From NCBI RefSeq assembly GCF_005047355.1, contig NZ_SUMC01000019.1, forward strand, positions 62,001 to 126,000: DNA of 64,000 nt, written 5' to 3'. A program made the translations under genes and the position numbers. Shown in pieces: positions 10,879 through 62,584 of the stretch. The number at the start of each line of letters is the position of its first letter. The first letter of the stretch is position 1. The notes under the pieces were generated by a model. It ran no database searches, was not told where the DNA came from, and worked only from the letters and a program-made list of their open reading frames with translations. This DNA is from Actinacidiphila oryziradicis. GTDB taxonomy: Bacteria; Actinomycetota; Actinomycetes; Streptomycetales; Streptomycetaceae.

Positions 10879-11342
10879 GATGACCTCTCCCCTTGCCTCG
10901 CTGTGCGCCGCCGCGTTCGCGAATTGGTGCGTGAGCGTAGCAGTGTGGGGGCGGCTGTTCGAGGTCACAGGGATCAAAACTGAACAAATAACACCACTGG
11001 TCCGGGCCCCGACGGGGCGGCCCGAAAATCTGGATCTCGCGGCAGCCTTCCCGCGACCAGCGGGGGCAACCAGTCTGTGGGACTCGCAGGTTGGCCCCTC
11101 CGTGTCCCACCCCCGCCACCCGTGGCCGGGCCAGTGCTCCGGCCCCGGTCAACGGCCCCGCCACGGGCGGCTATTACGCACACCGCACCCGGGACCGCGG
11201 CAGGGCGCCCATCCGCTGTTCGATCTCGGTGCGGACGGTGCGGACGGTGAGAGAGTTGCGCACGGTGCCGGCGGTGAGGGGGCGCCGGCGATGAGGGGGG
11301 GTGTGCGGGCCGTGGCTGTTCACTGCCTCGTACAGTGCACAT
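10879..11342. other. Intergenic, no gene recognised
   Basis: 464 bp between the divergent sigma-factor and amidohydrolase genes. It holds a GC-rich hairpin at about 11005-11020 (GGGCCCCGACGGGGC) and a short GTGCGGACG tandem near 11230-11250. No frame in it resembles a protein I know. Confidence 0.6.
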
Positions 11343-12425
11343 ATGGCTGATCTGCACATCAGGGGCCGAGTGCTCGTCGGGCCCGAGGACGTCCGGGACG
11401 AGCTGTGGGTCGTCGACGGCCGCATCACCTACGACCGCCCCGCCACGGCTCGCGACCTCCGCACGACGGACGGCTGGGTACTGCCCGGCCTCGTTGACGC
11501 CCACTGCCATGTGGGCCTCGGGGTCGACGGTCCGGTCGACGCCGCCGTCTCGGAGAAGCAGGCCCTCACCGACCGCGACGCCGGGACCCTGCTCCTCCGC
11601 GACGCCGGCTCCCCGTCCGACACCCGCTGGGTCGACGACCGCGAGGACCTGCCCCGCATCATCCGGGCCGGCCGTCACATCGCCCGTACCCGCCGCTACA
11701 TCCGCAATTTCGCCTGGGAGGTCGAGCCCGAGGACCTCGTCGCCTACGTGACGCAGGAGGCCCGCCGCGGCGACGGCTGGGTCAAACTCGTCGGCGACTG
11801 GATCGACCGCGAGGCCGGTGACCTCACCGCGTGCTGGCCGCGCGGTGCCGTCGAGGCCGCCATCGCCGCCGCCCATTCCGAGGGCGCCCGCGTCACCGCC
11901 CACTGCTTCGCCGAGGACTCCCTTCCCGACCTTGTCGAGGCCGGCATCGACTGCGTCGAGCATGCCACCGGCCTCACCGAGGACACCATCCCGCTCTTCG
12001 CCGCCCATGGCGTCGCCATCGTCCCCACCCTGGTCAACATCGCCACCTTCCCCGCCCTCGCCGCCCCGGGCGAAGCCAAGTACCCCCGCTGGGCCGCCCA
12101 TATGCTCCGCCTCCACGCCCGCCGTTACGACACCGTCCGGTCCGCCTACGACGCCGGCATCGCCATCTACGCCGGCACCGACGCCGGTGGCTCCCTCGCC
12201 CACGGCCTCATCGCCGATGAGGTCGCCGAGCTGATCCTGGCCGGCATCCCGGCCCTCGACGCCCTCTCCGCCTCCACCTGGGGAGCGCGCGAGTGGCTCG
12301 GCCGGGAGGGGCTTACGGAAGGCGCTCCGGCGGACCTGGTCGTGTACGGGGAGGACCCGCGCGCAGACGTGCGGGTGCTGGCCGCCCCGAAGCGCGTTGT
12401 GCTGCGGGGGCAGGTAGTGGGCTGA
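11343..12425 (+). CDS. Metal-dependent amidohydrolase
   Basis: 360 aa amidohydrolase-superfamily enzyme. An N-terminal beta domain leads to LPGLVDAHCHVGLG (HxH metal ligands). VKLVGDW carries the lysine position that is often carboxylated. VTAHCFAEDS and CVEHATGL supply two further histidines, and YAGTDAGGSL the metal-binding aspartate. The C-terminal EGAPADLVVYGEDPR is the closing beta domain typical of imidazolonepropionase/prolidase-like members. ATG 11343 follows directly on a CAT-rich promoter region. Probably hydrolyses a cyclic amide or dipeptide in the cytoplasm; the substrate is unknown. No operon partner is evident. Confidence 0.88.
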   Translation: MADLHIRGRVLVGPEDVRDELWVVDGRITYDRPATARDLRTTDGWVLPGLVDAHCHVGLGVDGPVDAAVSEKQALTDRDAGTLLLRDAGSPSDTRWVDDREDLPRIIRAGRHIARTRRYIRNFAWEVEPEDLVAYVTQEARRGDGWVKLVGDWIDREAGDLTACWPRGAVEAAIAAAHSEGARVTAHCFAEDSLPDLVEAGIDCVEHATGLTEDTIPLFAAHGVAIVPTLVNIATFPALAAPGEAKYPRWAAHMLRLHARRYDTVRSAYDAGIAIYAGTDAGGSLAHGLIADEVAELILAGIPALDALSASTWGAREWLGREGLTEGAPADLVVYGEDPRADVRVLAAPKRVVLRGQVVG

Positions 12426-12572: not shown

Positions 12573-13893
12573 ATGGTCGGTCAGGGTCCGCAGAAGTATC
12601 CGGGTGCTTCGAGGAAGTACTGGTACCAGGACGACTACGGCGGGGACGTGATGGAGGTAACACCGTCGTCCTGCACACGACGGAGGGCCGGACGGTGCCG
12701 TCGTACGGAGGTGGGAGCGTCGCGCCGAATCTGACGGCGCTTCCGGACCTCGACGCACGGAAGCTGGTCTGGTATCAGCACTTCGACATCGACATCTCGT
12801 CCAGAGCCCTGGCCAACAGGCCGGGCGGGGTGGAGACGAACACGCTCAACGTGTGCCAGGTGGAGCTGGTCGGCACGTGTGATCCGAAGACGCACGCCGA
12901 GTGGGGCGACGCGCCGCACATCTACTGGCCCCAGGCGCCGGAGTGGGCGCTGCGCGAGGTGGCGCGTTATCTGGCGTGGATGCAGCAGGAGCACGGGGTG
13001 CCATTGAGCGGGCCCAAGGCGTGGCTGCCGTATCCGGAGTCGGCCGGGAGCAGGAACGGGCAGCGGATGTCGGGAAAGGCGTGGAACGCCTTCAAGGGGA
13101 TCTGCGGGCATCAGCATGTGCCGGAGAACTGTGTGCATCCGGACACACCCATCCTGCGAGCCGATCTCACCTGGGTTCCTGCCGCTGATCTCCGAGTGGG
13201 AGAAGAGATCGTTTCCTTCGACGAGGAGACGATCGCGGTGGGCAGCACCAACGGCGGACGCAGGTACCGCCGTGGAGTGGTGACACGCAACGATCCGGGG
13301 CTGAAGGACTCGTACCGGGTCGGGACGGCCGGCGGTGAGGTGGTGGCCACGGCCGATCATCCGTGGCTGGTGCGAATTCCGTTTGCGAACCGGGGGTCCC
13401 GGACCGCCTGGGTCGTGAGCAGGGATCTGGTCCCGCTCGATCACCGGATCATCAGCATCGGCAGGCCCTGGGGGCTGGAGGACACCGGCATCGTCGGCCG
13501 GCCGGCGCTCCGGATGCCGACGGCCACGCCTTCGCCGGGGGACAGGACGGCTCATGGGCCGACGCCGGCCAGGTGGGCGGGGCGGTCCTCGACCGGGGGT
13601 CGTGCCGCTCGACGGGGATTCTATTGCCCGAGCAGTCCGGGCGGCCCCAGTGGCTTCTCCCGGCGGCGGAGCGTACGTGGGAGGGCGCGATGGTCGGCAG
13701 GACGACCGGCGACGTGGTCGTCCTCGGGCTGGAACACATCGGGGAGCAGCCGATCGCATCGATCTCCACATCCACCCGCACCTATATCGCGAACGGCTTG
13801 CTGTGCCACAACTCCCATGGGGATCCGGGTGCGATCGACTTCGCGGCGCTGCTCACCTACGCCAAGGAGGACGCGGGCGTCGATCCGGGTTGA
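12573..13893 (+). pseudogene. Peptidoglycan amidase-like gene interrupted by an intein and two frameshifts
   Basis: The frame from ATG 12573 reads MVGQGPQKYPGASRKYWYQD and DYGGDVMEV. At about 12658 one base is missing and the protein continues in the next frame as NTVVLHTTEGRTVPSYGGGS through KAWNAFKGICGHQHVPEN (ends 13129). An intein (13130-13812) follows, then SHGDPGAIDFAALLTYAKED to TGA 13893. The host resembles Streptomyces N-acetylmuramoyl-alanine amidase/PGRP-like proteins: H in VLHTTEG and H in HGDPG would bind zinc. A second one-base loss lies inside the intein at ~13475-13505. As written the gene cannot make a full product; sequencing error, recent decay or recoding are the options. 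Confidence 0.82.
13130..13812 (+). mobile_element. Intein (HINT domain) in the amidase-like gene, frameshifted
   Basis: Begins at Cys1 CVHPDTPILRADLTWVPAAD (block A). Block B is GEVVATADHPWLV with the T-x-x-H pattern. It ends RTYIANGLLCHN with His-Asn (blocks F/G), followed by Ser as +1 residue. All splicing residues are present. It spans 683 nt, one short of 228 codons. The middle contains PAGAPDADGHAF, resembling the core of a LAGLIDADG motif, so it may be the stump of a lost homing endonuclease (inference). The reading frame changes between WGLEDT and DADGHAF, so splicing-competent precursor cannot be made as the sequence stands. The insertion point lies inside the conserved HVPEN/HGDPG active-site motif, as is usual for inteins. 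Confidence 0.85.
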
Positions 13894-14181
13894 CGCGGCG
13901 TGACGCGCGGCGCACGTCGGTCGTTGTCTGTGACCGCGTGCGCCACTTTGACCTGTTGCTCGGGCCACAGGCGGGAACGGGCGTACTGAAAGGTGCGAAC
14001 GAATTCGAACGTAACGGCGGAAACCACCCATTGGAGTGAACTGACGCCAGGCGGCGGCGCATTCACTCCCGGTGCGTAAATATTGCGGGGTCGGAGTTGC
14101 CGACGAGCGCGCTGTTACTTCAGTGGCGCCGGTGGCCCTTGACCATTCGTACTGCCATGCCATTCGTGGGGGGTTCCCATT

Positions 14182-15222
14182 TTGTACAGCGCTACCTTCA
14201 GCATGCCCGCACGCCGTTCGGCGGCTGTCACCGCAGCCGCGGCCGCCCTGCTGCTCGCCGCGGCGCCCGCCCAGGCGACCGGCGGACCGGCGGAGGGAGG
14301 AACGGGCGAGGGCAGGGCGTCGGCCGCCGTCCTGCGGACGGGACTCGACGTCTCGCTGCTCGACAAGACGGCCGGTGTGCCACTGAACCTCTCGCTCAAT
14401 GAGGTGCAGGCGCCGGCCAGCGCCGAAAAGACCGCGTTGACCGCGAAGCTGGACGGGGTGGACCACGGCACGCCCTTCAACGTCCTGCGGGCAGAGGTCG
14501 CCACGGCGCGGGCAACCGTGGACAAGCACAAGGCCGAGGGCTACGTGAATCTGGTACGGGCGCAGGTGCATGTGCCGGGGCTGCCACTGCTCGGGCTGAT
14601 AAAGCTGCGCGCGGTGACGTCGGAGGCGACGTGTGAGGCGGGCAAGCGACCGACGGCGGCGTCCAATCTGCTCGGGGACGTGGTGGTCCTCGGCAAGAAG
14701 GTCACGGTGACGGCCGGCGGTCCGACGAATGTCACGGTGCCGGGGGTGGGGGAGGTGCGGCTCCATCTGTCCAAGGCGGAGACCACCTCCCGTACCGCGG
14801 CGGCGACGGCGCTTGAGCTGGACGTCAGGGTCAAACCGCTGAATCTGAACGTCGCGGAGGTCGCCGGTCGGATGACGCTGGCCAAGGCGAGCTGCGAGTC
14901 ACCCAAGGGCGGCGGTACTTCCTCGTCCGCAGGTGATCCCAGCGGTGCCCCCAGCAGTGAGCCCGCCAGCGGTTCTGCCGGTGCACCCGCCGACGGCGCA
15001 CCGACCCCGACCGCCGCGAAGGCGGACGGCGAGGCTGACACAAAGGTCGGGACCGGGACCAGGACCGGTTCCGGGGCCGCGGCCCAGGGCCTCGCCGAGA
15101 CCGGTGCCGGTTCCAGCACTCCCTTCCTCGCCGCCGGGGCAGGCGCCCTGGTCGTGGTCGGTGCCGGAGTGCTCTACGCCGTCCGTCGCCGCAAGGCGGC
15201 GGCTGAGGACGCCCGGGCCTGA
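14182..15222 (+). CDS. Secreted LAXTG-type cell-wall surface protein
   Basis: 346 aa. Signal peptide ~1-33 (AAVTAAAAALLLAAAPAQA). A beta-rich body ~45-245 has two cysteines (SEATCEAG and AKASCESPKG) that could pair. A Ser/Pro/Ala/Thr-rich wall-spanning stretch lies at ~248-305. The sorting signal is LAETG, then a hydrophobic helix (AAGAGALVVVGAGVLYAV) and RRRK. LAXTG plus helix plus basic tail is a sortase E substrate in Streptomyces. I recall the same gene (SCO1860) beside the cob operon in S. coelicolor. The TTG at 14182 has a G-rich stretch upstream; ATG 14203 is equally possible and still keeps the signal peptide. Confidence 0.88.
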   Translation: MYSATFSMPARRSAAVTAAAAALLLAAAPAQATGGPAEGGTGEGRASAAVLRTGLDVSLLDKTAGVPLNLSLNEVQAPASAEKTALTAKLDGVDHGTPFNVLRAEVATARATVDKHKAEGYVNLVRAQVHVPGLPLLGLIKLRAVTSEATCEAGKRPTAASNLLGDVVVLGKKVTVTAGGPTNVTVPGVGEVRLHLSKAETTSRTAAATALELDVRVKPLNLNVAEVAGRMTLAKASCESPKGGGTSSSAGDPSGAPSSEPASGSAGAPADGAPTPTAAKADGEADTKVGTGTRTGSGAAAQGLAETGAGSSTPFLAAGAGALVVVGAGVLYAVRRRKAAAEDARA

Positions 15223-39426: not shown

Positions 39427-39847
39427 CTACCCAGGTATTTCCGGCGCGTAGGTGCCGAAGGTCCACAGATTGCCTTCCGGGTCGCGGGCCGTGTAATCCC
39501 GCGACCCGTAATCCTGGTCGATGAGCGGCAGAACGATCTCCGCGTCGTGTTCCGACCGCCCGCTCGAAGTGCGCGTCGGGGTCCTCGACCACCACATACA
39601 GCGAGACCGGGCCCAGATCCTCGGCCGCCCTGCGGAACGGCGTATCGGCCTGGGCCGTACCGAGCATCACCGCCCCGTTGCCGTAGGCGAGTTCGGCGTG
39701 GTGGACGGTGCCGTCCTCACCCGCGTACACCGCGAGCTCGGTGAAGCCGAACGCCTCCTTCAGGAAGGCGATCGCCGCCCGCGCCTGGCGGTACCGCAGC
39801 GCGGGGTAGATGGCCGGCCGGCCGTCTCCGGGGCCGGTGACTGCCAT
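39427..39847 (-). pseudogene. PhnB-like VOC protein, frameshifted
   Basis: From ATG 39847 the frame reads AIYPALRYRQARAAIAFLKE, AFGFTELAVYAGEDGTVHHA and SLYVVVEDPDAHFERAV. Then, at ~39548-39556, homology moves to another frame: EHDAEIVLPLIDQDYGSRDY, TARDPEGNLWTFGTYAPEIP and a TAG at 39427. Together they make a full ~140-residue PhnB/glyoxalase-type protein. A change of one or two bases explains it. Unless it is a sequencing error, the gene is broken; the unshifted frame would add an unrelated tail. Confidence 0.85.
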
Positions 39848-39990
39848 GACGATCACGCTCCCTCTTCCGGTGCCATCCGATGTGACCTGAATCTCAGTCT
39901 TGCATCCGGGTCCGACAACACTCCCCGGGCCGCCTGCGCGAACGGCCGCCCGGCCGGAAATAACGTGGCGATCGGGCCGCGCGTCCCCGG

Positions 39991-61879: not shown

Positions 61880-62584
61880 TTGAGCCGCTCGGTTCTCGTC
61901 ACCGGAGGAAACCGGGGCATCGGCCTCGCTATTGCCCAGGCCTTCGCCGATGCGGGTGACAAGGTCGCCATCACATACCGCTCGGGCGAGCCCCCCAAGG
62001 GCTTTCTCGCCGTCAAGTGCGACATCACGGAGAGTGAGCAGGTCGAGCAGGCCTACAAGGAGATCGAGGAGAAGCAGGGCCCGGTCGAGGTACTGGTGGC
62101 CAACGCCGGTGTCACTCGCGACCAGTTGCTGCTCCGGATGTCCGAGGAGGATTTCACCTCAGTCCTGGAGACCAACCTCACCGGGACCTTCCGGGTGGTG
62201 AAAGCCGCCGCCAAGAAAATGCTGCGCGCCCGCAAAGGCCGGATCATCCTCATCTCCTCGGTGGTCGGCCTGCTCGGCTCGGCGGGCCAGGCGAACTACG
62301 CCGCCTCCAAGGCCGGACTGGTCGGCTTCGCGCGCTCCCTCGCCCGGGAGCTCGGCTCGCGCAACATCACCGTCAATGTCGTCGCGCCCGGCTTCGTCGA
62401 CACCGATATGACCCGGGTGCTCACCGACGAGCAGCGCAAGACCATCGTCGGGCAGGTCCCGCTGGGCCGTTACGCCCAGCCGGAGGAAGTCGCCGCCTCG
62501 GTCCGCTTCCTCGCCTCCGACGAGGCCGCATACATCACTGGAGCCGTCATTCCCGTAGACGGCGGATTGGGCATGGGTCACTGA
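61880..62584 (+). CDS. fabG: 3-oxoacyl-ACP reductase
   Basis: 234 aa short-chain dehydrogenase. SVLVTGGNRGIGLAIAQAFA (cofactor site TGGNRGIG), VLVANAGVTRDQLLL (NAG), ISSVVGLLGSAGQANYAASK with catalytic Ser, Tyr and Lys, and VAPGFVDTDMTRVLTDEQRK. It reduces 3-oxoacyl-ACP with NADPH in fatty-acid elongation. TTG 61880 is used because AAAGGG lies upstream and the protein starts at the usual place. inhA follows after five bases: a two-gene operon as in mycobacteria (mabA-inhA). Confidence 0.93.
   Translation: MSRSVLVTGGNRGIGLAIAQAFADAGDKVAITYRSGEPPKGFLAVKCDITESEQVEQAYKEIEEKQGPVEVLVANAGVTRDQLLLRMSEEDFTSVLETNLTGTFRVVKAAAKKMLRARKGRIILISSVVGLLGSAGQANYAASKAGLVGFARSLARELGSRNITVNVVAPGFVDTDMTRVLTDEQRKTIVGQVPLGRYAQPEEVAASVRFLASDEAAYITGAVIPVDGGLGMGH

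Follow-up and report, generated by a model that had tools for sequence, protein, structure and literature searches.

Because inteins occur mostly in DNA-handling proteins, an amidase-borne intein is unusual. The closest described elements are the LAGLIDADG-type inteins of actinobacteriophages, whose hosts package DNA (terminase in Mycobacterium phages, portal protein in Gordonia phages). Here, we describe a putative intein in a predicted peptidoglycan amidase gene, located on the plus strand in a 64,000-nucleotide stretch of DNA (the window; positions 62001–126000 of contig NZ_SUMC01000019.1, C101) of the soil bacterium Actinacidiphila oryziradicis. The source genome (G000) is an 11.5 Mb draft of 389 contigs with 6.25% contamination. 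The whole 265-residue intein of P0123, an amidase relative, resembles the phage inteins at 31–33% identity in the 25 listed of 138 records; all 138 were below 60% identity, and the 25 listed comprised 17 portal and 8 terminase proteins. The best curated match is the Rv2578c-type radical SAM intein (NF038136), which covers the N- and C-terminal splicing regions of another relative (P0066, residues 173–454, 9.0e-15) but has another host and another site, with a score far below the model's whole-protein cut-off of 700 bits.

On the host side, Streptomyces-phage endolysins (BRock, KimJongPhill, Lika, Ankus; PHROG 1493) belong to the same amidase family; the 40 rows listed, ordered by the product of coverage and identity, share 61–72% identity with P0121. 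The top rows cover 31–34% of P0121, and amidase and intein occur together in none of the matches listed. Group I introns in staphylococcal phage endolysin genes are also self-splicing elements in a lysin gene (PMC5526547), but they act at the RNA level and not at the protein level. Priority is not certain, as the literature search, which revealed no report of inteins in endolysins or other peptidoglycan hydrolases, did not take in preprints, most subscription papers or the actinophage intein survey cited in PMC11855218. A passage of PMC5526547 that mentions "introns and/or inteins" for staphylococcal phages and cites lysin genes as the example weighs against a claim of novelty; elsewhere, the article speaks of introns in the case of the endolysin. 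PMC3706429 reports inteins in terminases as well as HNH endonucleases that stand free around lysin A genes.

Identification of the intein

Three-frame translation divided the amidase gene into three pieces. The first, MVGQGPQKYPGASRKYWYQDDYGGDVMEV, starts at ATG 12573 and ends at a one-base frame change near 12658. The second runs through ...TVVLHTTEG...GHQHVPEN and continues in frame from 13130 into CVHPDTPILRADLTW...VVATADHPWLVR. The third, following a one-base change at about 13490–13507, reads ...YIANGLLCHN / SHGDPGAIDF...DPG up to the stop ending at 13893. Both changes shift the frame by one base in the same direction, and the second therefore does not compensate for the first. Thus, the three forward frames bear out the original prediction that two one-base changes break both host and intein.

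The order of the pieces and the boundaries were set by P0001, an unbroken protein of 446 aa from a Streptomycetaceae metagenome-assembled genome. It is nearly identical to the window over the gene start and the N-extein (Table 1) and over the two intein pieces (115/120, 96%, and 99/102, 97%); in the C-extein, 26 of 31 aligned columns agree, with 5 gaps. The insert has 683 bases in the window and 229 residues in P0001.

A Hint/intein fold was predicted exactly across the insert (P0001 residues 187–415), which answers the proposed check against Hint families. In a profile search, the N-terminal region of the window intein matched NF038136 (2.3e-9), TIGR01445 remaining below its cut-off; a Pfam search of the separate gene pieces yielded nothing useful. 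The hallmarks of inteins are a Cys1 nucleophile, a TxxH block B and a C-terminal His-Asn. All of them are present in the window frames, where the CVHPDTPIL and TADH segments are presumably blocks A and B, and C187, H414 and N415 of P0001 are invariant in the 33 rows of alignment A2.

Based on pattern classification, 36 of 179 related proteins carry an insert of this kind at the same site, 111 are empty and 32 are neither. The patterns required Cys at the first position and H-N or H-D at the end, and inserts without these were therefore counted among the 32. As the insert is common to 36 relatives, chance resemblance was rejected. In close relatives that lack the segment, among them G013, a genome of the same genus with the orthologous locus, the motif reads HVPEN-x-HGDPG. 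Frames, P0001 alignment and empty homologues thus agree that the intein parts HVPEN from HGDPG within one active-site motif, as first proposed, and that its residues are not ordinary host sequence.

The idea that the insert is a normal domain of an amidase subfamily could draw on its being in frame and under purifying selection in the intact copies. However, 111 of the 147 relatives classified as bearing or empty lack it, the listed phage endolysins match P0121 over those 31–34% only and have no intein, and the insert's own phylogeny departs from that of the host. The empty orthologous allele led us to reject this explanation, whose probability we regard as negligible. A bacterial intein-like (BIL) or other self-cleaving Hint domain, which would process its host instead of splicing, was also considered. 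BIL domains have no conserved extein site, need no +1 nucleophile and carry no endonuclease. Here, the insertion lies between the halves of one motif at a fixed site, empty homologues exist, most long forms show a LAGLIDADG motif, and +1 is Ser or Thr in 36/36 intein-bearing proteins (Ser, Thr or Cys in 11 of the 111 empty ones), which are requirements of splicing. Cleavage without ligation would also strand the putative third zinc ligand on a 26-residue C-terminal peptide of the window gene. BIL and toxin-type Hint domains were rejected on these grounds and seem very improbable.

The LAGLIDADG motif is visible in most long-form relatives. PF14528 (cut-off 22.5) scored 20.5 bits in P0134 and 21.0 bits in P0135, and had no match in P0066 or P0123. 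The window copy and P0001 have AGAPDADG in place of an intact LAGLIDADG, the endonuclease centre is deleted, and 52 of 94 endonuclease positions are filled in P0001. From its sequence, the window intein appears to be a decayed endonuclease-bearing intein and not a plain mini-intein. Based on the above results, we conclude, with a probability of about 0.94, that the insert is a cis-splicing LAGLIDADG-type intein occupying a fixed position within the active-site motif of an N-acetylmuramoyl-L-alanine amidase of the phage-endolysin type, whose gene was recently frame-broken in the window. What the data show of this are the sequence, site, predicted fold, distribution, purifying selection and horizontal movement of the intein.

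The host amidase

The host belongs to the endolysin-type amidase family of Streptomyces phages; the phrog_1493 endolysin matches P0001 residues 15–186. The empty homologue P0004 has an AmpD fold by structure match, and the AmpD assignment rests on this separate comparison, Foldseek alone having given only 3 matches for the host model at E <= 0.001 (TM ~0.4–0.5). A PDB sequence search with the host profile gave 0 matches. PF01510 (cut-off 26) scored 18.7 in P0004, under the cut-off, and 27.2 and 26.5 in P0106 and P0109, over it.

H35, H180, H182, H188 and D190 are invariant in the 30 empty homologues of alignment A3. By analogy with the AmpD fold, the zinc ligands are likely two His residues, that of VLHTTE and the first of GHxH, together with the Asp (D) of HGDPG. 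The original prediction assigned zinc binding to the His of HGDPG; the motif does hold a putative ligand, but this is the D, whereas the H falls at what we take to be the position of the AmpD catalytic lysine. The AmpD ligand and catalytic residues and their spacing are our assumption here, and no supporting paper for the ligands was found in the literature search. This His and the intein insertion site distinguish the host from AmpD/Amidase_2 zinc amidases.

Four alleles at one locus

In some Actinacidiphila genomes, the amidase gene is placed between two conserved chromosomal genes (Table 1). Because these flanks are collinear in same-genus genomes, a prophage location of the window gene was not supported. 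Comparison of the syntenic loci (blastn) revealed four alleles. G013 is empty, matching window positions 12585–13129 and then 13815–14916, with Leu at +1. G029 has a full 267-residue intein with an intact-looking LAGLIDADG-type motif, G025 and G008 have 164-residue mini-inteins from which the endonuclease domain is gone, and G000 has the shrunken, frame-broken intein. P0001 and P0003 retain AGAPDADGHAFAGG, with the endonuclease centre deleted, and on the host tree the empty P0002 is sister to the window's trio (99/81). The window genome also has an amidase paralogue (L068 8402–10291, G000:C349), 59% identical, with an empty site reading HVPEN-D-HGDPG.

Table 1. Coordinates of the amidase gene, its intein and the flanking genes in the window
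Feature	Position	Strand	Evidence
Upstream flanking amidohydrolase gene	11301..12425	+	PF01979; near the downstream gene in most of the genus
Amidase gene start, ~29 residues	12573..12660	+	Translation; 26/28 residues identical to P0001 start; ends at first break ~12658
N-extein, amidase domain VLHTTE to GHQHVPEN	12656..13129	+	153/156 (98%) identical to P0001; two of three putative zinc ligands
Intein N-terminal splicing region	13130..13489	+	Presumed block A CVHPDTPIL from 13130; presumed block B TADH 13349–13360
Second one-base break zone, within intein	13490..13507	+	Frames compared with P0001 and G029
Putative LAGLIDADG homing-endonuclease remnant RPAGAPDADGHAFAGG...	13495..13677	+	Motif lost, centre deleted; aligns with LAGVLDADGHAFAGG regions of P0066, P0121, P0123 and G029
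Intein C-terminal splicing region WEGA...PIASISTSTRTYIANGLLCHN	13678..13812	+	Terminal HN 13807–13812; ending common to other amidase inteins; Hint fold
C-extein: +1 Ser, HGDPG (D, third putative zinc ligand), to stop	13813..13893	+	Translation, comparison with P0001
Downstream flanking gene, SCO1860-family LAETG-anchored surface protein	14182..15222	+	NF041527 2.3e-112

Selection and authenticity of the frameshifts

Among G000, G029, G025 and G008, dN/dS (Nei–Gojobori) was 0.06–0.27 for the N-extein and 0.08–0.30 for the splicing parts; some dS values exceeded 1, which makes these estimates rough. Such low ratios indicate that the amidase gene was probably maintained in a working state until a recent loss. 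Together with the near-identical unbroken P0001, they support the earlier suggestion of recent decay, provided that the breaks are not assembly errors.

It may be that the intein is real while both frameshifts are sequencing or assembly errors and the organism has an unbroken copy, an explanation to be taken seriously although we hold it to be the less probable one. The existence of P0001 and the state of the draft genome fit it, as does a second window gene (39430–39905, minus strand; small, presumably glyoxalase-like) that, compared with two complete-genome references, also seems to be frame-broken. In a screen of C101 2001–146000, however, frame splits were flagged in 2/89 and 4/64 genes against the two references, with a baseline between the two complete genomes of 2/82 and 4/73 (reverse queries 3/80 and 1/68). 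There is no general excess of indels, which favours real loss over error, and two breaks within one 1.3 kb gene exceed the background of this screen. The screen itself is not without flaws: many of its flags are artefacts, and only one of the two references led to a flag for the amidase. On balance, real gene loss in this strain is the likelier reading.

Distribution and horizontal movement

The host tree was built from 70 N-extein rows (21 intein-bearing and 49 empty, the empties having been thinned to this number and 20 distant long-branch intein-bearing rows omitted). The intein label requires 7 changes on this tree, of which the starred branches force 5, and none of the 200 bootstrap trees needs only one. 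P0066 and P0128 have inteins 75% identical against N-exteins of 35%; for P0066 and P0123 the values are 82% and 61%. Intein phylogeny differs from host phylogeny, and the sequences indicate that the intein moves horizontally. The seven mini-inteins form one cluster on the intein tree (90/83) but lie apart on the host tree.

A survey of 394 genomes of the family, limited to scoring the top candidates in each, detected the intein in 6, one of which has it in another gene; it fills 5 of 49 host places, found in 43 genomes. Any match was obtained in 4 of 392 genomes of G179's genus, which overlap this survey. A class-wide draw matched 4/374 genomes, namely the own genome and three weak ones, and a plasmid search returned 2 distant records. 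Source names of the intein-bearing relatives are "hypothetical protein" and "Hint domain-containing protein", with "peptidoglycan-binding protein" for P0133.

Among viral sequences, a contig search with P0132 gave 1 relative, and 2 of 4 loci scanned on IMG/VR contigs (L096 and L097) have an intein-bearing amidase gene. L096 (52 kb, with primase and helicase neighbours) is, judged by length, the contig of P0128 and therefore adds no case to the 36; in L097 (21 kb), tape-measure and tail-terminator genes precede the amidase gene. A PHROGs search of the intein-bearing frames assigned that of L096 to no family and matched that of L097 to nothing but an HNH-endonuclease family (1.4e-5), their endolysin-type label resting on alignment to A2 (47% and 30%). 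No isolated phage with an intein in its endolysin was among the matches listed from 50,697 phage records.

Several relatives of the intein were seen elsewhere. L091 (G509:C13:200130-200537), in another genome of the family, is a decayed copy with a relic of the same intein after EN, similarity being lost past a LAGLIDADG-like motif. L067 (7773–10370, G023:C2, minus strand) is an 866-codon frame with a relative of the amidase intein (34–37% identity) in another gene; its neighbours look terminase-like and portal-like by eye, and it is probably in a prophage. P0129, P0131 and P0132, together with P0122, are extein-free proteins of 274–302 aa from the same intein family with eroded splice residues. 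In the first three, the endonuclease part is 83–86% and the Hint part 58–66% identical to P0123, so that they look like intein-derived free-standing homing endonucleases, comparable to yeast HO. The start of P0129 could be a mis-called GTG, and P0122 (84 and 77% to P0123) is less clear and may be a fragment. Besides the amidase intein, G000 has one in a thyX-type thymidylate synthase (L001, G000:C337:55397-56062), a known intein host in Streptomyces (PMC5050341); a frame of 934 codons (L002/L003, G000:C368:131872-133122) gave another intein match.

Proposed mechanism and significance

Mechanistically, this is an ordinary intein. We infer the splicing chemistry, the dependence of amidase activity on splicing and past homing. 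In intact relatives, the amidase precursor would be inactive when made, since the insert separates the putative second zinc ligand, in the HVPEN loop, from the third, in HGDPG. Cys1 and Ser/Thr+1 would carry out the acyl shift and transesterification, the C-terminal His-Asn would cyclise to release the intein, and the exteins would be ligated into an amidase reading ...HVPEN-S/T-HGDPG.... Formerly, the LAGLIDADG domain would have served to copy the intein into alleles that were empty. This domain looks intact in G029, is reduced in the window as well as in P0001 and P0003, and is missing from G025 and G008. In the window genome, the two one-base frameshifts would then have recently destroyed the gene.

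An extension of this pathway, which we think unlikely, is that the intein serves as a post-translational lock: the amidase would be made as a zymogen, and splicing, possibly conditional, would time wall cutting. If so, the mini-inteins kept in G025/G008/P0007 and P0035/P0051/P0067 would reflect use and not only the difficulty of precise loss.

Having spread among the peptidoglycan amidases of actinobacteria and of some of their viruses, this intein does not follow the pattern of DNA-protein hosts. Its specialist interest comes from the host, the spread across bacteria and viruses, and the allele series at one locus. The four alleles at one chromosomal locus in one genus (empty; LAGLIDADG; mini; shrunken and frame-broken) form a compact system for testing the homing cycle. 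As the amidase does not act on DNA and its splicing could be read out as wall lysis, the same series would also suit testing whether splicing times lysis.
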